In this document: positions 1,150 to 63,900 of the stretch, one piece after another
Layout: each line of letters starts with the position of its first letter
Position numbering within the stretch: position 1 is the stretch's first letter
Assembly: GCA_947650365.1 (NCBI GenBank)
Contig: OX393555.1
Coordinates: 80,729,995 to 80,793,994, forward strand
From: Chamaelirium japonicum
Lineage: Eukaryota; Streptophyta; Magnoliopsida; Liliales; Melanthiaceae
DNA: 64,000 nt
Direction of reading: 5' to 3'
Notes under the pieces: generated by a model
What the model saw: only the letters and a program-made list of their open reading frames with translations
What the model was told of the DNA's origin: nothing
Database searches by the model: none
Translations under genes and position numbers: made by a program

Positions 1150-1163
1150 CGTTATCAGCACAA
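1150..1163 (+). other. Primer-binding site like tRNA-Ile(IAU) anticodon arm (type example)
   Basis: The family consensus is CGTTATCAGCACGA, here with an A in place of G near its end. It abuts the LTR end CA. From memory of plant tRNA-Ile(AAU), residues 27-40 read TCGTGCTAATAACG, whose complement is CGTTATTAGCACGA. The only mismatch (C for T) falls opposite position 34, which is inosine in the mature tRNA and pairs with C. A primer made from the 5' half of a tRNA is known for Drosophila copia. Confidence 0.55.
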
Positions 1164-3085
1164 ACATGTCGAGCCCAGCTGACCGGTCATAAGAAAACGA
1201 AGAGAGTAACGAAGACAGAAGAGAGAGTAGATGAAAGAAGAGAACGAAGTATAAATGAAGAGAGAAGAGAGAAGAGGTCATGCTCCAGTCCATTCACTAT
1301 GGGTATAAGTATAAAGTAAGAAAGAATATAAATTCCAAAACTCAACTTCTTAATATTTATATGACCCCTTTAAGGTGGGGCACGTTTGATGGCTCTCTTT
1401 TTCTCCATCACACAATACGTTATCAGCATGAACATGTCGAGCCCAACCGACCAGTCATAAGAAAACAGAGAGAGAAAGGAAAATAGAAGAGAGAAGAGAA
1501 TGCGGAGATAAACGAAGAGAGAAGATAGAAGAAGTAGTTATGCTCCAACCAATTGGCCACAGGTATAGGTGTGAAGTAAGAAAAAATCTAATTAGGGTGG
1601 GGCATATTTAATGGCTCTCTCTTTTTCCTATCTCATAACATGTTATCAGCACGAATATGTCGAGCCCAATCGACCAGTCATAAGAAAACAGAGAGAGAAA
1701 TGAAGACGGAAGGGAAAGAAGAAGAGAGAAGAAAATAGAGAGATAAACGAATAGGGAAGAGATAAGAAGTCCTGCTTTTGTCTATTCACCATAGGTATAG
1801 GTGTGTAATAAGAAAAAATCTAAATTCTAAAACTCTACTTCTTAATAATATAATTAAATCTCTCTATTCTCTTCTCTCTTCTCCCATGGATTAAGGTTTA
1901 CCATAGTTTCCTTAGGCCCTAAGTAAGCTTACCCTATAAATAAAATACAACCTCATTAGGATAGGGCACGTTTGACTACTCTTTCTTTCTCCTATCTCAT
2001 AAAATGTTATCAGCACGAACAAATCTAGCCTAGCCGACCAGTCATAAGAAAATAGAGAGAGAAACGAAGACAGAAGATAAAGAACAGAACTGAGAATTAA
2101 TTATTTAAATAGTCTCTTCTCATACGGGTATAGGTGTGTAGTAAGAAGGAATCTAAATTCCAAAACTCCACAAAAGAGAGAGAAGAAAAGAGAAGAGAAC
2201 AGAGAGATAAATAAAGAAAGAAAAGAGGAAAAGTCCTGCTCCAGTCCATTGGCCACTGGTATAAGTATGATGTAAGAAATAATCTAAATTCCAAAACTCT
2301 ACTTTTTAATATTTATACGACCCATTTAGGGTGGGGCATGTTTGACGGCTCTCTTTTTCTCCCATCTCACAACACTTTATCAATACGAACATGTCAAGCC
2401 CAGCCGACCAGTTATAAGAAAATAGAGAGAGAAACGAAGACAAAAAAGAGATAAGAGAACAGAGAGATAAACAATAAGAGAAGAGAGAAGAAGTCCTGCT
2501 CCAGTCTATTGGCCACGGGTATAGGTGTGAAGTAAGAAGGAAGCTAAATTCCAAAACTCTACTTTTTAATAAGATAATTAAATCTCTTCGTTCTTTTCTT
2601 TCTTCTCCCATGGATTAGGGTTTTCTATAGATTACTTAGGCTCTAAGTAAGCTTCCCTATAAATAATATACGACCCCTTTAGATATGGCATGTTTGACAA
2701 CTCTCCCTTTCTCCCATCTTACTGCACGTTATCAATATGAATATGTCGAGCCCAGCCAACCAAGCACAAGAAAACGAAGAGAGAAACGAAGATAAAAGAG
2801 AGAGAGAAGAAAGAAGAGAACAGAGATATAAACGAAGATAGAAGAGAGAAGAAGTTCTGCTCTAGTCCATTGCCATCCAATCGAATGATCTCATAACAGT
2901 TGCATTGTTTTAAACTTTTTTTTTAAAAAATATAAATCATTTTTATTACAAAAAATTCAATGGCAATCTAGTGAGAGAAGAGAACGGTGAGATAAACGAA
3001 GAGAGAAGAAAGAAGAAGTCCTACTCTAGTCTATTCACCACGGGTATAGGTGTGAAGTAAGAAGGAATCTAAATTTCAAAACTCT

Positions 3086-4346: not shown

Positions 4347-4945
4347 GAGTTTTGGAATTTAAATTCTTTCTTACTTAATACTTATACCCATGGTAAATGG
4401 ACTAGAGCAGGGCTTCTTCTCTGCTATCTCTTCGTTTATCTCTCCGTTCTCTTCCCACTCTTCTGTCTTTGTTCTCTCTTAGTTTTCTTATGATTAGTCG
4501 GCTAGGCTCGACATGTTTTTCTTGATAACGAGTTGTGAGATGGGAGAAAGGGAGAGCCATCAAACGTGCCCTATCATAAAGGGGTCGTATATTATTTATA
4601 GGGTAAGCTTACTTAAGGCCTAAGACATCTATGGGAAATCCTAATCAATGAAAGAAGAGATAAGAGAATGAAGAGATTTAATTGTATTATTGAGAAGATG
4701 AGTTTGAAATTTAGATTCCTTCTTACTTCACACCTATACTCGTGGCTAATGGACTGGAGCATAAATTTTTCTCAATTCTCTATTTATTTATCTCTCCGTT
4801 CTTTTCTCTCTTCTTCTCTCTCTTCTGTCTTTGTTTCTCTCTCCGTTTTCTTGTGACTGGTCGGCTGGGCTCGATATGTTCGTGCTAATAACGTGTTTTT
4901 ATTATAGGAGAAAAAGAGAGCCGCCAAATATACCCTAAAACTCCA
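4347..4945 (-). repeat. Antisense units
   Basis: It opens with GAGTTTTGGAATTTA, the reverse complement of the unit's 3' box. CT tracts and primer-site motifs on - follow at about 4517-4530 and 4880-4893. An LTR in reverse, with AAGGGGTCGTATATTATTT, lies near 4579. At about 4930 it rejoins sense sequence. The open frames here are CT-tract translations. Confidence 0.7.
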
Positions 4946-6679
4946 CTTCTTAATATTATCATCACAATGTTATTATGATTATCAAAGTAATATTACTATA
5001 ATTTTTTAAATTAAATTAATTATTTATTTAATTATTAAAATATTTAAATAATTTAATAATTAATTTTTTAGTAAAATAATTAATTAATTTAATTATTTAA
5101 TTATCTAGTTATTTAATTAAATTTATTATTTTATTTATTTATTATTATTAATATATTTAATAATTAAATTTGATAACTATTTAATTATTTAAATTATTAA
5201 GTAAAGAAATAATGATTTAAAATATTTAAATAATTTAAAAAAATATTTAATTAATATTTAAAAAATATTTATTTATAAAACATTACAACTGTAATGAGAT
5301 CGTTCGATCGGATAGCTGTCCACCATCGGATCTCTCCCATGGATTAGTGTTTCCCTTAGTTTTCTTAGGCACTAAGTAAGCTTACCCTATAAATAATATA
5401 CGACTCCTTTAGGGTTGAGCATGTTTGACGGCTCCTTCTTTCTCCTATTTCATAACACGTTATCAGCATGAACATGTCGAGCCCAGCCGACCAGTCGTAA
5501 GAAAATGGAGAAAGAAACGAAGGCAAAAGAGAGAGAAGAGAACGGAGAGATAAACGAAGAGAGAAGAGATAAGAAGTCCTGCTCTAGTCCATTGGCTATG
5601 GGTATAAGTGTGAATTAAAATAACTAATTAATTATTTAATAACTAATTAGGGCTGACCAATTGTTCGATCGGATGGCTGTCCACCGTCGGATCTCTCCCA
5701 TAGATTAGGATTTCCAATAGATTACTTAGACCCAAAGTAGGTTTTCTCTATAAAAAAAATATGACCCCTATAGGGTAGGGTATGTTTGACGGCTCTCCCT
5801 TTCTCCCATCTCACAACACGTTATCAGCACGAACATGTCGAGCCCAACCGACCAGTCACAAGAAAACGGAAAGAGAAACAAAGAAAGAAAATAAAGAAGA
5901 AGAGAGAAAAGAATGAAGAGATAAATAAAAAGAGAAGAAGTCCTGCTCCAGTCTATTGGCAATGGGTATAGGTGTGAAGTAAAAAGGAATCTAAATTCCA
6001 AAACTCCACTTCTCAATATTAATAGTACCCCTTTAGGGTGGGGCATGTTTGATGGCTCTTTATTTCTCCCATCTCACAACATGTTATCTTCATGAACATG
6101 TCGAGCCCAGCCGATTAGTTATAAGAAAACGGAGAGAGAAACGAAGACAAAAGAGAAAGAAGAAGAGAAAAGAGAATGGAGAGATAAACGAAGTGAGAAG
6201 AGGAAAGAAGTCCTGTTCTAGTCCATTCGCCACGGGTTTAGGTGTGAAGTAAGAAGGAATCTAAATTCCAAAACTCCACTACTTAATATTTATACGATCC
6301 CTTTAGGGCGGGGCATATTTGATGGCTCTCTTTTTCTCTTATCTTATAATATATTATCAGTATGAACATATTGAGCATAGCCAATCAGTCACAAGAAAAT
6401 AGAGAGAGAAAAGAAAACAGATAAGAGAGAAGAAGAGAGAAGAGAATGGAAAGATAAACGAAGAGATATGAGAGAAGAAGTCCTGCACTAGTCCATTGGC
6501 CACGGGTATTGGTATGAAGTAAGATATAATCTAAATTCCAAAACTCTACAGAAGAGAGAGAAGAAGAGAGAAGAGAATGGAGAGATAAATAAAAAGAGAA
6601 GAGAGAAGAAGTTATGCTCTAGTCGATTGGCCATGGGTATTGGTGTGAAGTAAGACAAAATCTAAATTCCAAAACTCCA
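4946..6679 (+). repeat. Sense units with shortened AT body
   Basis: An AT body of about 330 bp (4960-5285), internally deleted relative to 3086-3955, leads to the complete LTR at 5290-5457. Primer-site motifs follow at 5458, 5819, 6082 and about 6348, each with a GA tract and a GGAATCTAAATTCC-type box. A second LTR near 5660-5818 has lost its first bases. Confidence 0.75.
5290..5457 (+). repeat. Complete 168-bp LTR
   Basis: It starts TGTAATGAGATCG, contains TATAAATAATATACGACTCC near 5390 and ends CATAACA. The primer-site motif follows at 5458. The length equals other complete copies exactly. Confidence 0.75.
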
Positions 6680-8160: not shown

Positions 8161-10394
8161 GTGGAGGTTTGGAATTTAGATTCCATCTTACTTCACACCT
8201 ATACTTGTGGCTAATGGACTAGAGCAGGACTTCTTCTATTTTATCTTATCGTTTATCTCTCCGTTCTTTTCTCTCTTCCTCTCTCTCTTCTGTCTTCGTT
8301 TCTCTCTCCGTTTTCTTGTGACTGGTCAGGTGGGCTTGACATGTTCGTACTAATAATGTCTTATGAGATGGAAGAAAAAGAGCTGTCAAAAGTGACCCAC
8401 CTAAGGGTCGTATAAATATTAAGAAATAAAGTTTTGGAATTTAGATTCCTTCTTACTTCACACCAATACCCGTGGCCAATGGACTGGAGCATAACTTCTT
8501 CTCTCTTCTGTTTTTGTTTATCTCTCCATTCTCTTCTCTCTTCTTCTCTCTCTTCTATCTTCATTTCTCTCTCTGCTTTCTTATGACTGGTCGGCTAGGA
8601 TAGACATGTTCGTGCTGATAACGTATTGTGGGAGGGGAGAAAACAAGAGATATCAAATATGTCCCTCACTAAAAGGGTCATATAAATATTAAGAAGTAGA
8701 GTTTTGTAATTTAGATTCCTTCTTACTTCATGTCTATACCTGTGGCCAATGGACACGAGCGAGATTTCTTCTCTCTTCTCTCTTTATTTATTTCTCCGTT
8801 CTCTTCTCTCTTCTCATCTTTCTTTTGTTTTTGTTTCTCTTTCCATTTTCTTGTGACTGGTCGGCTGAGCTCGACATGCTCGTGCTGATAATGTGTTGTG
8901 AGATAGAATAAAGAGATGGGAGAGATCCGACAGGTCGTATAAATAATATATGAACATGGAAGAGATTTGACGGGTCGTATAAATATTAAAAACTAGAGAT
9001 AAGATAAGAAGTCCTGCTCCAGTCCATTGGCCACGGGTATTGGTGTGAAGTAAGAAAGAATCTAAATTCCCAAACTCCACAGAAGAGAGAGAAAAAGAGA
9101 TAAGAGAACGGAGAGATAAATGAACACAAAAAAGAAAAAAAAGAGAGAAGAGAACGAAGAGATAAACGAAGAGAGAAGAGAGAAGAAGTCCTGCTTCAAT
9201 CCATTGGTAACAGGTATAGGTGTAAAGTAAGAAGGAATCTAAATTCTAAAACTCCACAAAAGAGAGAAGAAGAGAGAAGAGAACAAAGAGATAAATAAAG
9301 AGAGAATAAAGAAGAAGTCCTGCTCCAATCAATTGGCTACGGGTATAAGTATGAAGTATGAAGGAATCTAAATTCTAAAACTCCACTTCTGTCTTTGTTT
9401 CTCTTTCTGTTTTCTTGTGACTGGTCAGCTGGGCTCGATATTATCGTGCTGATAATGTGTTATGTGATGGAAGAAAGAAAGAGCCGTCAAATATGCCCTA
9501 CACAAATGGGGTCGTATAAATATTGAGAAGTGGAGATTTGGAATTTAGATTCGTTCTTACTTCACATATCTACCCATGGCTAATGGACTAGAGTAGGACT
9601 TCTTATCTCTTCTCTCTTTATTTATCTTTTCATTCTCTCCTTTTTTTTCTCTCTCTTCATTCTTCGTTTCTTTCTCTATTTTCTTGTGACTGGTCGGTTG
9701 GGCTCGAAGTATTCATGCTTATAACGTGTTGTGAGAAGAAAAAAGAAGAAAGAAGAGAATCGAGAGATAAACGAAGAGAGAAAAGAGAATAAGTCCTGCT
9801 CCAGTCCACTCACCATGGGTATTGGTGTGAAGTAAAAAGGAATCTAAATTCCAAAACTCCACTGCTTAATAATATAATTAAATATCTCCGTTCTCTTCTC
9901 TCTTCTGCTATGGATTAGGGTTTCCCATAGATTGCTTAGACCCTAAGTAAGTTTAGCCTATAAATAATATATAACCCCTTTAAGGCGGGGTACGTTTGAC
10001 GGCTCTCTCTTTCTCCCATCTCACAACACGTTATCAGTACGACCATATAGAGCCCAGTCGACCAGTTACAAGAAAATAGACAGAAAAACAAAGACAGAAG
10101 TAGAGTTTTGGAATTTAGATTCCTTCTTACTTTACACCTATACCCGTGGCCAATAGACTAGATCATGACTTCTTCTCACTTCTCTCTTCATTTATCTCTT
10201 TGTTCTCTTCTCTCTTATTCTCTCTTCTCTGTCTTCATTTCTCTCTCTGTTTTCTTACGACTAGTCGGTTGGGCTCGATATGTTCGTGCTGATAATGTGT
10301 TAAAAGATAGGAGAAAGAGAGAGCCGTCAGACGTGCCCCACCCTAAAGGGGTCATATATTATTTATAGGATAAGCTTACTTAGGGCCTAAACAA
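8161..10394. repeat. Alternating antisense and sense units
   Basis: Orientation changes every few hundred bases: antisense at 8161-8984 and 9388-9734, sense at 8985-9387 and 9735-10100, antisense at 10101-10394. Primer-site motifs on - are at about 8345, 8610, 8880, 9444, 9713 and 10284, with one on + at 10029. Each switch falls at the same unit boundary, in the conserved sequence around ACTCCACTTCTGTCTTTG. No coding evidence. Confidence 0.7.
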
Positions 10395-15420: not shown

Positions 15421-15959
15421 ATCATAATAACATTGAGATGATACTATTGAGAAATAGAGTTTTAGAATTTAGATTCCTTCTTTTCATTTCTCTCTCTGTT
15501 TTCTTACGACTGGTCGGCTGGGCTCGACATGTTCGTACTGATAACGTATTATGAGATGAGAGAAAAAAAGAGCCATCAAACATGCCCCACCCTAAAGAGG
15601 TCATATATTATTTATAGGGTATGCTTACTTAGGGCCTAAGTAATCTATGGGAAACCCTAATCTATAGGAGAAGAGAGAAGAGATCGAGAGATTTAATTAT
15701 ATTATTGACAAGTGGAGTTTTGGATTTTAGATTCCTTTACTTCATATCTATACCCTTGGCGAATGGACTAGAGTAAGACTTCACTCTTCTCTCTTCATTT
15801 ATCTCTCTGTTCTCTTCTCTCTTCTCACAACACGTTATCAGCACGAACATATCGAGCCCAGCCGACCATTCACAAGAAAATGGTGCGAAAAACGAAGACA
15901 GAAGAGAGGGAAGAAGAGAGAAGAGGACGTAGAGATAAATGAAGAGAGAAGAAGAGAAA

Positions 15960-31966: not shown

Positions 31967-34900
31967 TGTTATCAGCTCGAATATGTCAAGCCCAGCCGAC
32001 CAGTCACAAGAAAACGGAGAAAGAAATAGAGAAAGAAGAGAGAGGAGAAAAGAGAATGAAGAGATAAACGAAGAAAGAAGAGAGAAGAAGTCCTGCTCTA
32101 GTCTTTTGGCCACGGGTATAGGTATGAAATAAGAAGGAATCTAAAGTCCAAAACTCCACATCTCTATAATATAATTAAATCTCTCCATTCTTTTCTTTCT
32201 CTCATCTCACAACACGTTATCAGCACGAAAATTTTGAGCCCAATCAACCAGTCACAAGAAATCGGAGAGAGAAACGAAGACAGAAGAGAGAGAAGAAGAA
32301 AGAAGAGAATGGAGAGATAAACAAAGAGAGAAGAGAGAAGAAGTCCTGCTCTAGTCCATTGGCCATGGGTATATCTGTAAAGTAAGAAGGAATCTAAATT
32401 CTAAAACTCCACTTCTTAATAGTCTCATCTCAATGTTTTTATGACTATCATAGTAATATTACTATAAATTTTTTAATTAAATTAATTATTTATTTAATTA
32501 TTAAATAGGTATGAAGTAAGAAGGAATCTAAATTCCAAAACTTTACTTCTTAATATTTATACGACCGCTTTAGGGTGGGGCATATTTAATGGATCTCTCT
32601 TTATCCCATCTCATAATACGTTATCAGCACGGATATGTCAAGCCCTGCCAACTAGTCGCAAGAAAACGAAGAGAGAAATAAAGATAGAAGAGAGAGAAGA
32701 AAAGAGAAAAGAACTAAAAGATAAACAAAGATAGAAGGAGAAGAAGTCCTGCTCCAATCCATTGGCCACGGGTATAGTTGTGAAGTAAGAAGGAATCTAA
32801 ATTCCAAAACTCCACAGAAGAGAGAATAAGAGCGAAGATAACAGAAAGATAAATGAAGAGAGAATAAGTCCTGCTCCAGTCCATTATCCACGGGTATAGG
32901 TGTAAAGTAAGAAGGAATCTAAATTCCAAAACTCCACTTCTGTCATCGTTTATCTCTCTATTCTCTTCTCTCTTCTTCTCTCTCTTTTGTGTAGTTTTGG
33001 AATTTAGATTCCTTCTTACTTCATACCTATACCTGTGGGAAATGAACTGGAGTAGGACTTCTACTATTTTCTCTCTTTGTTTATCTCTTCGTTATCTTCT
33101 CTCTTCTTCTCTCTCTTCTGTCTTTGTTTCTCTCTTAATTAAATAATTATATTATTTAATTAAATTATTTAGCTAGAAAAGAGAAGATAACAAAGAGTTA
33201 AACCAAGAGAGAAGGGAAGAAAAAGTCATGCTCCAGTCCATTGGCCACGGGTATAGGTATAAAGTAAGAAGGAATCTAAATTCCAAAACTCCACAGACGA
33301 GAGAAAATAAGAGAGAAGAGAGAGAAGAATAGAGAAGAGAACGTAGAGATAAACGAAAAAAGAAGAGAGAAAAATTCCTACTCCAGTCCATTGGCCACGG
33401 GTATAAGTGTAAAGTAAAAGGAATCTAAATTCCAAAACTCTACAAAAGATAGAGAAGATAAGGACATACTTCTATTTAATTATTAAAACTAGAGAGATTT
33501 ATAATATTTTATTTAGGTTCCCTTCTATCTTCTAACAACACGTTATCAGCTTGAACATGTTGAGTCCAATCGACTAGTCCCAAGAAAACAGAGAGAGAAA
33601 TAAAGACTAAAGAGAGAGAAAAAAAGAGAAAAGAATAAAGAGATAAACAAAAAGAGAAGAGATAAGAAGTCCTGTTCCAGTCCATTCGCCACGGGTATAG
33701 GTATAAAGTAAGAAGGAATGTAAATTCTAAAACTCCACTTCTCAATATTTATATAACCCCTTTAGGGTGCGACACGTGTGACGGTTCTCTCTTTCTTCCA
33801 TCTCACAACACGTTATTAGTATGAATATATCGTGCCAAGCAGACAAGTTAAAAGAAAACGGAGAGAGAAACGAAGACAGAAGAGAGAGAAGAAGAAAGAA
33901 GAGGACGGAGAGATAAATGAAGGAAGAAGAAGTCTTGACCAAGTCTATTGACCACGGGTATAGGTGTGAAGTAAGAAGGAATCTAAATTCTAAAACTCCA
34001 CAAAAAAGAGAGAAGAAAAGAAAAGAGAACGAAGAGATAAATGAAATAAGAAGAGAGAAGAAGTCCTGCTCCAAGTCATTGGCTATGGGTATAGATGTGA
34101 AGTAAGAAGGAATCTAAATTCCAAAACTTCACTTTTGTCTTTGTTTCTCAATCCGTTTTCTTACGACTGGTCAGTTGGGCTCAACATATTCGTGCTGATA
34201 ACGTGCTGTGAGAAGAAAGAAAGAGAGAGCCATCAAACATGCCCCACCCTAAAGGGGTCACAAATTATTTATTATTTATAGGGCAAGCATACTTTAGGCC
34301 TAAGCAATCTATGGTAAACCCTAATCCGTGGGAGAAGAGAGTAGAGAATGGAGAGAGTAAATTATTTTATTGAGAAGTGGAGTTTTGGAATTTAGATTAC
34401 TTTTTACTTCACACATAAACCCATAGTTAATGGATTGGAGCAGGACTTCTTCTCTTTTCTGTCTTCGTTTATCTCTTTGTTCTCTTCTCTCTTATTCTCT
34501 CTTCTGACTTTGTTTCTCTCTCCGTTTTCTTGTAACTAGTCTGCTGGGCTCGACATGTTCCTTCTGATAACGTATTGTAAGATGGGAGAATGAGGAAGCT
34601 GTCAAATATGCCCCACCCTAAAGGGGTCATATAAATATTAAGAAGTTGAGTTTTGGAATTTAGATTCCTTCTTACTTCACACCTATACCCATGGCCAATG
34701 GCCTAGAGCAGGACTTCTTCTCTCCTCGTTTATCCTTTCATTCTCTTCTCTCTTTTTCTCACTCTTCTGTCATCGTTTCTCTCTCCGTTTTCTCTTCTTT
34801 CTTATTCTCTCTCTTCTATCTTTATTTCTCTCTCTATTTTCTTGTGACTGGTAGGCTAAGCTCAACATGTTCGTGCTGATAATATGTTATAAGGTAGAAG

Positions 34901-53048: not shown

Positions 53049-55085
53049 CATTATCAGCACAAACATGTCGAGCCCTATAGAATCTAATTAAATAAATATT
53101 TAATTGATTTCATAACTTCTTCTCTCTTCTCTCTTCGATATGTTCGTACTGATAACATATTGTGAGGTAGGAGAAAGAGAGAGCATTCAAACGTGCCCCA
53201 CCCTAAACAGGTCGTATATTCTTTAAAAAGAAGAGAAGAGAACGGAGAGATAAACGAAGAGAGAAGAACTCCTGCTCTAATCCATTGACCACGGGTATAA
53301 GTATGAAGTAAGAAAAAAGCTAAATTCTAAAACTCCACTTCTCAATATTTATACGACCCATGAGATCTCTACCATCTCTTTATTTATTATACTTATTTAA
53401 TCTCACAACACGTTATCAGCACGAACATATCAAGCCCAACCGACCAGTCATAAGAAAACGGAGAGAGAAATGAAAACAGAAGAAAGAGAAGAAGAGAGAA
53501 GAGAACGGAGAGATAAACGAAGAAAGAAAAGAGAAGAAGTCCTGCTCCAGTCCATTGGCCACGAGTATAGGTGTGAAGTAAGAAAGAATATAAATTCCAA
53601 AACTCCACTTTTGTCTTCGTTTCTTTCTCTGTTTTCTTAAGACTGATCTATTTGGCTCGACATGTTTGTGCTGATAACGTGTTGTGAGATGGGAGAAAGA
53701 GAGAGCTATCAAATATACCTCACCCTAAAGGGGTCGTATAAATATTAAGAAGTAGAGTTTTGGAATTTACATTCCTTCTTACTTCACAACTATACCCGTG
53801 GCCAATGGACTGGAGAGGCCACAGGTATATTATTTATTGGGTAAGATTACTTAGGGCCTAAACAATCTACGGTAAACCCTAATCCATGGGATATTACTTA
53901 GGGCCAAAGCATGACTTCTCGCTTCTCTTCTTATTTATCTCACTGTTCTTTTCTCTCTTTCTCCCATCTCACAACACGTTATCAATACGAACATATCCAG
54001 CCCAGCTGACCAGTCGCAAGGAAACGAAGAGAGAAGGGAGGACAAAAGAGAGAGAAGAAGAGAGAAGAGAACGAAAAGATTTAATTATATTATTGAGAAC
54101 TGGAGTTTTGAAATTTAGATTCCTTCTTACTTCACATCTATACCCGTGGCGATGTACTTGAGCAGGACTTCTTCTCTCTTCTCTCTTCGTTTGTCTCTTT
54201 GTTCTCTTCTCTCTTCTTCCCCCTCTTCTATCTTCGTTTCTCTCTCCGTTTTCTTGTGACTAGTCGGCTGGGCTCGATATGTTCATGCTGAATAGGAGAG
54301 ATTATTTAACTAATATAATTTTTAGTCCTGCTCCATATTTAATCTCTCTTCTTCTCTCTCTTCTGTGAAGATTTGGAATTTAGATTCCTTTTTACTTCAC
54401 ACCTATACCCGTGGCCAAAGGACTGGAGCAAGACTTCTTCTCTCTTCTCTTTTTATTTATCTCTTTTTTATCTTCTCTCTTCTTCTCTCTCTTCTATGGA
54501 GTTTCGGAATTTAGATTTCTTCTTACTTTACACTAATACACATGGCCAATGAACTAAAGCAGGACTTTTTTTCTCTTTTCTCTTTATTTATCTATCCATT
54601 CTTTTCTCTCTTCTTCTCTCCCTTTTGTTTTTGTTTCTCTTTCCCTTTTCTTGTGACTGGTCGGTTGGGCTCGATATGTTCGTACTGATAACGTATTGTG
54701 AGATGGGAGAAAGAAAGAGTCGTCAAACGTGCTCCTCCCTAAAGGGATAATATATTATTTATAGGGTAAGCTTACTTAGGGCCTAAGCAATCTATGGGAA
54801 ACCTTAATCGATGGGAGAGATTCGATGATGGATAACCATCCTTCTTACTTCACACCTATACCCGTGGTGAATGGACTGGAGATGGACTTCTTCTCTCTTC
54901 TCTCTTCTTCTTTTTCTAATTATCGGATAGCTATCCACCATCGGATCACACTTATGGATTAGGGTTTCGCATAGATCGCTTAGACCCTATGTAAGAAGAA
55001 GTCATGCTCTAGTCCATTGGCCACGAGTATAGAAGTGAAGTAAGAAGGAATCTAAATTCGAAAACTCTACTTCTCAATAGTATCA
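53049..55085. repeat. Units between the right arm and the gypsy element
   Basis: Primer sites on + are at 53049, 53411 and 53977, and on - near 53144, 53665 and 54680. A short unit remnant with AAATAAATATTTAATTGATT at 53090 pairs with about 19945. Near 53820-53900 an LTR fragment is doubled. At 54820-54960 a reversed LTR piece, an internal fragment and TCGGATAGCTATCCACC are fused. No coding domain. Confidence 0.65.
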
Positions 55086-58704: not shown

Positions 58705-59683
58705 CAACCAAAGGAGATCCCACTGTCCGAACCTCCACCAATCGAATGGGAGACCTCACCCTCAATCAACATTGGCAGTGGAGATCTCCCTCGAGAAACC
58801 TTCATCGGTACCGATCTCAGCGACACAGAAGCATAAGACATGGTTTCCTTCCTTCAATCCAATATTAACGTCTTCGCCTGGTGTTTCGAAGACATGCCCA
58901 GGATCAACCCGAAGGATGCTTCTCACCGGATCGCAATCAAAGAAGGAGTGAAGCTTGTCAAACAAAAACCACGCACAATCCGACCAGAACGACAAGCTGC
59001 AGTTCATGAGGAGATTAATAAGCTACTCGCAGCAGGCTTCATTCGTGAAGTAGAGTACCCTACTTGGATCTCCAACATAGTCGTTGTCCCTAAGAAGAAT
59101 GGCAAAATCAGGGTCTGCATCGACTTCACCAACCTTAACAGGGCTTTCCCTAAAGACCCATTCCCCATGCCAAGGACAGATAGACTCGTTGGCGCCACTG
59201 CTGGCCACGAGCTCCTATCTTTCATGGACGGATACTCTGGGTATATTCAAATCCCGCTACATCCGGACGATCAAGAGAAGACATATTTCGTAACATACCG
59301 AGATCTTTACTGCTACAACGTAATGCCATTCGGCCTCAAAAATACTTGATCGACCTATCAAAGGCTAGTCACAAAGATGTTCGAATAACAAATCGGCCGC
59401 AACACTGAAGTCTATGTCGATGATCTACTCACCAAAAGTCCCAATCGGGAGAGCCACTTCTCCAATCTAGCAGAGATGTTTCAAATCCTCCGAAAATACC
59501 ACATGAAGCTTAACCCAGCCAAATGTGCCTTCGGTGTTCAATCGGGTAAATTCCTGGGTCACCTTGTGACCAGGAGAGGCATCGAAGCCAACCCCGACCA
59601 AATTCGATCTATCCTCGATATGCCATCGCCTAACAATCGGAAGGAAGTTCAATACCTCACTGGAAGATTAGTTGCCCTCAATC
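58705..59683 (+). pseudogene. Reverse transcriptase region of gypsy pol, broken
   Basis: RNA-directed DNA polymerase domain. Visible blocks in order are: F-A-W near the start, an H-x-I linker, K-Q-K-P-R and P-E-R, E-I-N-K-L-L-A-A-G-F-I-R-E, W-I-S-N-I-V-V-V-P-K-K-N-G-K, R-V-C-I-D-F-T-N-L-N, S-F-M-D-G-Y-S-G-Y, M-P-F-G-L-K-N, the catalytic Y-V-D-D at 59413-59424, and K-C-A-F-G with F-L-G-H-L-V further on. Catalytic Asp residues are therefore intact, but stops at 58834 (TAA), 59347 (TGA) and 59386 (TAA) interrupt the frame. A one-base loss near 59683 shifts it. Confidence 0.9.
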
Positions 59684-60054
59684 ATTCATCTCGAAATCTT
59701 CTGACAAGTGCAAACCACTCTTCGATAAATTGCGAAAGGCAGATACCTCTGGATGGAGTACAACTTGCGAACAAGCTTTTCAAGATGCCAAAAATTATCT
59801 CGTGCGTACTCCTATTTTGACAGCTCCGCTCCCAAAGAAAGATCTTTGGCTCTATCTTAACGTTACTGATCAAGCAATCAGTACGGTCCTGGTCAGCAGA
59901 AGAGAAGGCATTGAATATCTGGTCTACTACATCAGTCATACACTTCTCCCGGCAGAGACATAATCTTCAACCCTATTTTGTCTCTCATCCGATCAGTGTC
60001 ATCTCAGAGCACCCACTCAACAACATCCTAGACAAGGCTGGTCGAGCAGGTTGA
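59684..60054 (+). pseudogene. RT connection and first RNase H, internally deleted
   Basis: After the frameshift near 59683 the frame continues to TAA at 59961 with F-Q-D-A-K, L-T-A-P and L-Y-L-N-V-T-D-Q-A, the usual start of the gypsy RNase H with its first Asp. The expected segment with the catalytic Glu is missing: sequence jumps from an A-E-T tripeptide (just before 59961) to a remnant read in another frame (about 59966-60054). That remnant keeps a degraded P-L motif before the K-W box. About 50-60 bases appear deleted. This RNase H would be inactive. Confidence 0.8.
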
Positions 60055-60690
60055 ATGACCAAATGGGTGATCGAGATGAGTGCTCTCGGAATTCAATTCG
60101 AGCCTTGCACTTCGCTCAAAGGGCAAGTTGTAGCTGACTTCCTTGCCGACTTCCCCATGGATGATCCTATTGCATGGAAGGATGACGTCAAAATACACCT
60201 CGATAACGAAGACGAACCTCCGCTCAACTCTGCTCCTACAACCATCAATCATAGTCCCGAGACTCCCAATACTTCAAATCGATGGAAGCTTTACACTGAC
60301 GGAGCTTTAAGTGCAATCGATTCGGGAATTGGGATAGTCTTGATATCCCCCGAGCTCGATCACCTCCAAAAGGCTATTCTCCTCGGATTCAACGCTACAA
60401 ACAACAAAGCAGAATACGAAGCACTTATCTCTGGATTGGAGATTATTAGATCCTTGGGGGTCGACCGTCTCGTTGTCCACAGCGACTCCCAACTGATAAT
60501 TCGACAGATTAATGGGGAGTATACAGCCCGTGAAGAAAGGAAGCAATACTATTTGGCTTTGGTGATGCATTATCGATAATGATTTAATAACATCGAATTC
60601 CTTCAAATCCCGAGGGCCGAGAATCGAGAAGCTGATGCTCTGGCTAACGCTGCTTCAGTACTTGGAGATTCACTCGGAGAAAGGTGAATA
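60055..60690 (+). pseudogene. Second RNase H (aRNH-type) of gypsy pol, broken
   Basis: It opens with the T-K-W-V-I-E box and G-Q-V-V-A-D-F-L-A-D-F that link the two RNase H domains in Tat elements. The second RNase H follows: Y-T-D-G-A (Asp codon at 60298-60300), N-N-K-A-E-Y-E-A-L, H-S-D-S-Q-L, and E-A-D-A-L-A-N near 60630. All four acidic positions are present. Two consecutive stops (TAA 60577, TGA 60580) split the last motif from the rest, and a further TGA follows near 60685. Presence of this extra domain is the main basis for the Tat-like call. Confidence 0.88.
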
Positions 60691-60925: not shown

Positions 60926-63900
60926 ACTTGAGCAGGACTTCTTATCATTTCTCTCTTCATTTATCTCTTCGTTCTCTTCTCTTTTCTTCTCTCTCTGCTG
61001 TCTTTGTTTCTCTTTCCGTTTTCTTGTGACTGGTCGGTTGGGCACGACATGTTCGTGCTGATAACGTATTGTGAGATGGGAGAAAAAGAAATAAGAGAAT
61101 GAAGAGATAAACGAAGAGAAAAGAGAGAAGAAGTCTTGCTCCATTCTATTGGCCACGGGTATAGGTGTGAAGTAAGAAGGATGACTGTCCACCATCGGAT
61201 CTCTCCCATGGTTAGAATTTCTAATATATTACTTAGGCCCTAAGTAAGCTTACCGTATAAATAATATACGACCCTTTTAGGGTGGGGCATGTTTGACGAC
61301 TCTCTCTTTCTCCCATCTAATAATACGTTATCAGTACGAACATGTCGAGCCCAGCCGACCAGTCACAAGAAAACAGAAAGAGAAAGGAAGATAGAAGTGG
61401 AGTTTAGAAATTTAGATTCCTTCTTACGTCACACCTATACCCATGGCCAATGGACTAAAGTAGGACTACTTCTCTCTTATGTGGAGTTTCGGAATTTAGA
61501 TTCCTTCTTACTTTACAGCTATACGTGTGGCTAATGGATTGGAGCAGGACTTCTTCTCTTTTCGTTTATCTCTCTGTTATCTTCTTTTTCTTCTATCATC
61601 ATTTCTCTCTTCGTTTTCTTGTGACTGGTCGGTTGGGCTCGACATGTTCATGTTGATAACGTGTTGTGAGAAGAGAGAAGAGAACAGAGAGACAAATAAA
61701 GAGAGAAGAAAGAAGAAGTCATGTTCCAGTCCATTCGCCATGGGTATATGTGTGAAGTAAGAAGGAATCTAAATTCCAAAACTCTACTTCTTAATAATAT
61801 AATTAAATCTCTCAGTTTTCTTTTCTTTTTGTTTATGGATTAGGGTTTTCCATAGATTGCTTAGGCCCTAAGTAAGTTTTCCCTATAAATAATATATGAC
61901 CCCTTTAGGGTGGGGCACGTTTGATGACTTTCTCTTTCTCCCATCTCACAACATGTTATCAGTACGTTTATAATATCGAGCCCAGCTGACCAGTCGTAAG
62001 AAAACAGTAAGAGAAACGAAGACAGAAGTGGAGTTTGGTATTTAGATTCCTTCTTACTTCACACTTATACCCTTGGCCAATGGACTGGAGCAGGACATCT
62101 TCTCTCTTCATTTATCTCTCTGTTCTCTTCTCGCTTCTTATCTCTCTTCTGTCTTCGTTAAACTCTACTTCTTCTCTATATAAACGGATAGAGAAACGAA
62201 GACAGAAGAGAAAGAAAAAGAGAGAAGAAAACGGAGAGATAAACGAAGAGAGAAGAGAGAAGAAGTTCTGCTCCAGTCCATTGGCCATGGGTATAGGTGT
62301 GAAGTTCTCTCTTTTCTCTTTATTTATCTCTCCGTTCTCTTCTCGCTTCTTATCTCTCTTTTGTCTTCATTAAACTCCTCTTCTTCTCTCAATAAACGGA
62401 TAGAGAAACATAAACAGAAGTGTGGGAAGAAGAGAAAAGAGAACGGAGAGATAAACGAAGAGAAGAGTGAAGAAGTCCTGCTCTTGGCTATTGGCCACGG
62501 GTATAGGTGTAAATTAAGAAGGAATTTAAATTCCAAAACTCCACTTCTGTCTTCGTTTCTCTTTCTCTTTCTTGCAACTGGTCAGCTGGGCACGACATGT
62601 TCGTGCTGATAACATGTTATGAGATGGAAGAAAGGAAGATCCGTTAAACATGCCCCACCCTAAAGGGGTCGTATATTATTTATAGGGTAAGCTTACTTAG
62701 GTCCTAAGCATTTTAAAGGAAACCTTAATCCATGGGAGAAGAGAGAAGAGAATAGAGAGATTTAATTATATATTTCAAAGTAGAGTTTTGGAATTTAGAT
62801 TCCTTCTTACTTTACACATATACCCGTGGTGAATGGACTGGAGCAGTACTTCTTCTCTCTTCTTTCTTTGTTTATCTCTCTCTTCTCTTCTCTCTTCTTA
62901 TTTTTTCTTACAACTTGTTATCAGCACGAATATATCGAGCCCAGCGGACCAGTCACCAGAAACCAGAGAGAGAAATAAAGACAGAAGAAAGAGAATAAGA
63001 GATAAGAGAATAAAGAGATAAATAATTTGAATAATATATTTAAATAATTTAGTTAAATTCTAAATGGTGGTCTGCTGGGCTTGATATATTCATGCTGATA
63101 ACATGTTGTGAGTAAAGAGAAGAAGAGAGAAAAGAATGGAGAGATAAAGGAAGAAAGAAGAGAGAAGAAGTCCTCCTCTAGTCTATTATCCATGGGTATA
63201 GGTGTTATTTAAAAAGGAATCTAAATTCTAAAACTCCATTTCTCAATAATATAATTAAATCTCTCCGTTCTCTTCTCTCTTCTCCCATGGATTAGAGTTT
63301 CTCATAGATTACTAAGGCCCTAAGTAAGTTTACTCTATAAATAATATACGACCCCTTTAGGGTAGGGCATATTTGACGGCTCTCACTTTCTCCAATCTCA
63401 TAATACGTTATCAGCACGAACATGTCGAGCCCAGTCGACTAGTAATAAGAAAAATAGAGAGACAAACGAAGACAAAAGAAGAGAGAAGAGAACGGAGAGA
63501 TAAACGAAGATAAAAGAGAGAACTTCACACCTATACCCATGGCCAATGGACTGGAGCAGGACTTCTTCTCTTCTCTCTTCGTTTATCTCTCCATTCTTTT
63601 CTCTCTTCTTCTCTCTTTTCTGTCTTCGTTTCTATCTTCGTTTATTGAGAAAAGAAGTGGAGTTTAATGAATACAAAAGAAAGAGAAGAAGAGAGAAGAG
63701 AATAAAGAGATAAATGAAGAAAGAAGAGAGAAGAAGTCCTGCTCCAGCCAATTAGCCATGGGTATAGGTGTGAAGTAAGAAGGAATCTAAATTTCAAAAG
63801 TCTACTTCTGTCTTCGTTTTTCTATCTATTTTCTTGTGATGGGTTGGCTGGGCTCGACATGTTCGTGCTGATAACGTATTATGAGATGGGAGAAAGAGAG

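Follow-up and report, generated by a model that had tools for sequence, protein, structure and literature searches.

A Miniature LTR Element Family of Chamaelirium japonicum with a Putative Primer Binding Site Matching an Edited Half tRNA-Ile

Part-tRNA Primers and Arrayed Miniature Elements

Initiator tRNA-Met, a tRNA not known to carry inosine at position 34, is the primer of the Drosophila copia element. Copia uses a half-tRNA, and yeast Ty5 primes from an initiator tRNA-Met that is cut within the anticodon loop (PMC5371799). The use of only a short tRNA segment as primer is also given by the ICTV as a feature of hemiviruses (PMC8515867). Priming by an edited tRNA-Ile half is already published for the Ty1/copia lineage Bianca, of which the primer binding site (PBS) is complementary to a half tRNA-Ile whose first anticodon base has undergone A-to-I editing (Neumann et al., 2019; PMC6317226). 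Bianca elements have gag and pol in two separated ORFs, with a spacer of 172 bp on average (PMC6317226). Tandemly arrayed TRIMs have been described as common in plants; their units are shorter than 1 kb, lie head to tail and share LTRs (Gao et al., 2016; PMC4717578). That article does not use the words PBS or tRNA in its main text.

The elements of Chamaelirium japonicum described here resemble copia and Ty5 in that the primer would be part of a tRNA, but differ from Ty5 in that this would be tRNA-Ile and not initiator tRNA-Met (PMC5371799). Longer loci of the same host share with Bianca a PBS that fits an edited half tRNA-Ile, a copia pol region and two separated ORFs (PMC6317226). For the PBS, this likeness is one of sequence complementarity only; what was observed with regard to the hemivirus primer feature is likewise complementarity of sequence. 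The elements in the window differ from Bianca in being miniature. They resemble the arrayed TRIMs in their short LTR-internal-LTR units with shared LTRs, although the clusters of the host look far larger, as judged by eye from lists of places (PMC4717578). What is added here is modest, i.e., a miniature, arrayed family with the site, the exact 14-nt boundary of the match and a possible trace of primer copying at one locus (L076).

The Window Family and Its 14-nt Site

The window is the whole stretch of 64,000 nucleotides that was analyzed (G000:C7:80729995-80793994), within an assembly of 1.519 Gb. A short LTR element packs it in both orientations. The consensus site after the LTR end is CGTTATCAGCACGA, a 14-mer that is present at 97 window sites when two or fewer mismatches are allowed, compared to 0.12 expected (100 shuffles). 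Using a 50-bp context probe, 134 family sites were found (71 on the plus and 63 on the minus strand), 14 of which are exact to the 14-mer; at equal threshold, the probe gave 0 matches on one strand of one base-shuffled window. The initial annotation of this DNA had counted, by eye, about 139 sites directly after the LTR end. The probe puts this number at 134, and abutment to the LTR is seen on longer host relatives (three loci, see below). The copies and parts referred to in the text are the following:

1150..1163, plus strand: putative PBS copy singled out by the initial annotation, CGTTATCAGCACAA, with 1 mismatch to the consensus (sequence, mismatch search)
1150..1280, plus strand: short internal region of one miniature element, from the PBS to the next LTR start, with a purine-rich tract at its end (sequence, spacing)
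1281..1417, plus strand: one LTR copy, TG..TA at this copy (sequence, spacing)
1418..1431, plus strand: next putative PBS copy, CGTTATCAGCATGA, on the strand of the 1150..1163 copy (mismatch search)
4880..4893, minus strand: putative PBS copy, CGTTATTAGCACGA, that has T opposite position 34 and so equals the unedited complement, a minority state (mismatch search)
5819..5832, plus strand: exact copy of the putative PBS, after ..CTCACAACA (mismatch search)
8610..8623, minus strand: exact copy of the putative PBS (mismatch search)
15833..15846, plus strand: exact copy of the putative PBS (mismatch search)
32215..32228, plus strand: exact copy of the putative PBS (mismatch search)
53411..53424, plus strand: exact copy of the putative PBS (mismatch search)
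63406..63419, plus strand: exact copy of the putative PBS (mismatch search)

As the sites at 1150..1163 and 1418..1431 lie on the same strand, LTR and internal parts alternate. Spacing in the window has modes of 132 bp from the PBS to the next LTR start and of 138 or 232 bp from an LTR start to the PBS, and the elements often share LTRs head to tail. Their layout is that of a TRIM: LTR, PBS, short internal region, purine tract and LTR, in less than 1 kb and non-coding. The internal region is too short for gag or pol. Rfam and ARAGORN gave no match on the window.

At two places in the window, 26301 (plus strand) and 45104 (minus strand), CGTTAATTAGTAAAC follows the LTR end in place of the PBS. 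The flanks of both are largely alike and AT-rich, as if one copy had been duplicated. Degraded reverse transcriptase (RT) and RNase H pieces, Ty3/gypsy-like, are located among the miniature elements at 58837-60579 (plus strand), with Pfam matches to RVT_1, RVT_3 and RNase_H in three of the five ORFs scanned.

Complementarity to Host tRNA-Ile(AAU)

Inosine at position 34 (I34) is established for eukaryotic tRNA-Ile(AAU). The site had been proposed to equal the complement of residues 27-40 of this tRNA in plants, except for a C opposite position 34. Such a tRNA is indeed encoded in the host genome, where a 27-base stretch of it, GAGCGTCGTGCTAATAACGCGAAGGTC, has nine exact matches. All nine matching genes are tRNA-Ile with anticodon AAT (ARAGORN); all have A34 and the expected anticodon arm. 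The complement of residues 27-40 is CGTTATTAGCACGA, and the PBS consensus differs from it only opposite position 34, as proposed. With the C opposite A34 as only misfit, the site would be fully complementary if the tRNA is A-to-I edited. Moreover, the complementarity is internal to the tRNA, so that the primer would be a 5′ half.

The initial annotation had named two results that would speak against this reading. One is a genomic tRNA-Ile anticodon arm that does not match the site; this was looked at, and the arm matches. The other is a better match of the site to a tRNA 3′ end, which was not encountered as far as tested, since the start of the site lacks TGG. A match to the mature tRNA 3′ end (CCA) was rejected as a candidate for the same reason. 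A scan of the host genome with RF00005 gave 63 matches, all with one score, of which 62 are on contigs C539 and above; a usable set of nuclear tRNAs did not come out of it.

A tRNA in which G34 is encoded, i.e., nuclear or organelle tRNA-Ile(GAU), would pair directly with the C of the site without any involvement of editing. However, the anticodon arm with G34 (TCGTGCTGATAACGCGA) has 0 matches in the 1.52 Gb assembly, by which a tRNA with this full arm and G34 is ruled out. The stem of plastid tRNA-Ile(GAU) is a different one. A genome-wide search with the arm and the D-arm together (any base at position 34, at most three mismatches) found 12 places. Nine of these are the tRNA-Ile genes, one is L076 and two lie elsewhere. 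The two others have 1 and 2 mismatches and are candidate tRNAs only; like the nine genes, they have T at 34 on the site strand, the complement of A34. The single C34 match is L076, which is a retroelement locus. We consider pairing with an encoded G34 very improbable.

The Base Opposite Position 34

In the 134 window sites, the base opposite tRNA position 34 is C in 118, T in 11, A in four and G in one. At the level of the host genome, there are at least 14,508 exact copies of the C-form 14-mer and 0 copies of the same pattern read backwards. For the T form, at least 1,345 copies are found, the nine tRNA genes included, against one for the backward control. T is accordingly present opposite position 34 in approximately 8% of the copies (11/134 in the window; 1,345 versus 14,508 in the genome). 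On C1 below 116.28 Mb, the stretch for which both the C and the T listing are complete, 75 C copies stand against 4 T copies, with the tRNA gene located there left uncounted. The flanks of these four T copies differ, and each is preceded by ..AACA. The LTR end followed by a site with a base other than C at 34 occurs at 996 places in the genome; among the 100 listed, this base is mostly T and in a few cases A.

The T copies, together with the conceivable priming with one internal mismatch, could indicate that the tRNA-Ile half is used while C34 is a tolerated A:C mismatch or a relic, inosine having no role. However, the C is kept in copies of which the downstream flanks have lost similarity, and the T copies look like the result of ordinary C-to-T decay. 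In the position-34 column, T is rarer (11 of 134) than at site positions 0, 9 and 11 (36, 42 and 34 of 134, respectively), a comparison between positions with different methylation contexts.

The C form is also found in sequences from two other plants. In ice plant, a small RNA reads across ..CAACA, CGTTATCAGCACGA and A (PMC4977306), and in rapeseed a PCR primer reads across ..CTTAACA and CGTTATCAGCACG (PMC8961026). Both were retrieved from literature by a text search with the antisense 13-mer and, as the LTR end is identical, they are apparently retroelement junctions. Text searches with unedited tRNA stretches gave none, which is a weak control because the tRNA itself was missed as well. These two sequences likewise argue against the tolerated mismatch or relic, which we consider improbable.

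A soybean match of an 11-mer search was rejected, because it is a tandem repeat unit in which the full site is missing. With C as well as with T, the junction had 0 matches in IMG/VR. The ice plant small RNA is listed as a novel miRNA, mcr-miR6; it spans the LTR/PBS junction in antisense and is possibly a retroelement siRNA (PMC4977306).

Ends of the Match

Twenty host loci were fetched over 6.5 kb. Three of these (L014, L019 and L027) have a 3′ LTR with 96-99% identity to the 5′ LTR, and it stops exactly where the 14-mer position starts. Another 16 have no 3′ LTR in that stretch, and in L015 the LTR alignment reached the end of the locus 7 bases short. Because the 3′ LTR ends where the 14-mer begins, the LTR and the site adjoin without spacer, which would place the end of the primer at G40.

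The other end was studied on a set of 60 dispersed copies. The listing for C1 as far as 95.4 Mb has 63 places, of which three were unfetched. These copies were chosen by an exact match to the 14-mer, so that their internal conservation is not independent and the information comes from the flanks and the C-to-T counts alone. AAYA precedes the 14-mer in all 60 (57 AACA and 3 AATA). A T/C-rich stretch at -10 to -7 of the LTR ends is partly common to them as well, and the copies are related. The first base after the 14-mer is A in 11, G in 29, T in 12 and C in 8 copies, which corresponds to 0.19 bits (0.12 bits in the 31 rows with flanks differing by more than 30%), and the downstream sequence is near random. 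With the LTR end before the 14-mer and near-random sequence after it, the match spans tRNA residues 27-40 and no more.

These ends also bear on the idea that the 14-mer is not a primer site at all, but another conserved motif, such as the target of a small RNA or a signal for packaging. The ice plant small RNA over the junction would fit such a role (PMC4977306). However, the initiator-Met site, too, has small RNAs that contain its complement, and these leave the nature of that site unchanged (PMC5846777). In addition, the 14-mer lies without spacer at the LTR end in the three loci, which is where a primer site belongs, and it corresponds to one host tRNA stretch that ends within the anticodon stem. 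A motif of another kind is hardly credible.

Coding Relatives in the Host Genome

A search for a copia-like element with the same site had been suggested, and such elements were found: several host loci carry both the site and copia pol. Nine ORFs from L010, L016, L017, L021, L022, L024 and L028 each have a copia pol domain above the Pfam cut-off; two further matches, rve in L022 and SH3 in L021, do not reach it. In L010, L016 and L024, the integrase precedes RVT_2 downstream of the site. With the RT domain of L024 as query, 15 of the 20 loci, L024 itself included, proved to have an RT stretch in the same orientation as the site. The same-strand RT of the other 14 is 54-96% identical to that of L024. 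The exceptions are L023, with an RT scrap of 25 residues, and L012, with RT on the opposite strand; for L013, L018 and L025, this query gave no RT match. The usual initiator-Met junction is also present in the host genome, 6,401 times. Two of eight loci with the initiator-Met site gave an RT match, at 28-42% identity to L024.

In L016 and L028, a gag ORF (Retrotran_gag_2 and zinc knuckle) is followed by the pol ORF after 267 and 268 bases, respectively, a distance measured between the close of the gag frame and the point at which the next frame opens. L012 has a gag ORF as well, with an unscanned ORF 279 bases further on. No intact ORF of that size is present there in the other 11 of the 14 loci listed. 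The spacer of 267-268 bases differs from the average of 172 bp in Bianca, but both were counted differently (PMC6317226). The coding relatives are likened to Bianca by their PBS, pol and ORF layout.

The LTR end upstream of the PBS in L025, a dispersed copy, resembles that of the window family by eye. This copy is therefore a candidate for linking the family to a coding relative, but its 6.5 kb gave no RT match.

Proposed Priming Mechanism

The case for a PBS is made by the sequence match, its ends, the copies with unlike downstream flanks, the A34 in nine genes and the copia coding regions. The shortness of the match, 14 nt, is counted against it. Taken together, the 14-mer is probably the PBS of a Ty1/copia-type lineage, very probably Bianca, and of its TRIM-like miniature, non-autonomous relatives, with priming by a tRNA-Ile 5′ half through an I34:C pair (probability of about 0.88). 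At sequence level, what the initial annotation observed is confirmed and its interpretation supported.

According to the proposed mechanism, A-to-I editing would provide the host tRNA-Ile with I34, which pairs with C. The mature cytosolic tRNA would be cut after G40, releasing a 5′ half of which residues 27-40 would anneal to the PBS. This half would subsequently prime minus-strand DNA synthesis. The miniature elements would be moved by the coding relatives.

C34 might be kept up in either of two ways. One is selection on a strictly inherited site, as would be suggested by the PBS of Ty1 and Ty3, which have been reported to be strictly inherited (PMC7472051). The other is rewriting by copying of the tRNA, which is what happens in retroviruses. 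Such copying could be hindered here by a bulky modification of A37, which in the case of tRNA-Lys3 was shown to be able to stop RT (PMC13191261). The strict inheritance in Ty1 and Ty3 and the RT stop at modified A37 both count against taking C34 as necessarily derived from tRNA copying.

One locus bears on this second way. In L076, alone of the 60 copies, the match continues past residue 27 into the D-arm of the tRNA, with 14 of 16 further bases matching, compared to 1 to 8 of 16 in the other 59 dispersed copies. The two misfits are opposite G26 and G19. If each base matches with a chance of one quarter, the nominal probability of at least 14 matches out of 16 is 1.6e-5 over 60 copies and 0.004 over 14,508. 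L076 was first spotted by eye. L076 may be the trace of a primer half that was copied past residue 26. In the tRNA, G26 is N2,N2-dimethylguanosine, which is a strong block to RT. A tentative and rather doubtful extension is that, in plus-strand synthesis, the edited tRNA half serves as template for RT, which halts before G26. This would set the length of 14 nt and rewrite the C opposite inosine in each cycle, which would make the genome a read-out of tRNA editing and L076 a case of read-through.

Implications and Large Arrays

The host tRNA genes and the genome-wide counts support the published view of an edited half-tRNA as primer of a plant copia lineage, and within one genome the miniature relatives that carry this site reach very high numbers. 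This suggests why such elements would escape primer-site searches that look for TGG and tRNA 3′ ends. Should the tRNA copy be inherited, the sites would form a genomic record of tRNA modification.

Besides the window (C7:80.73-80.79 Mb), dense clusters of sites extend over at least 1 Mb at C1:116.28-118.12 Mb, C2:0.14-1.44 Mb and C2:108.70-109.89 Mb. Among the matches listed, the clustered sites show recurring distances by eye. This suggests that the miniature element is now part of large satellite-like arrays.
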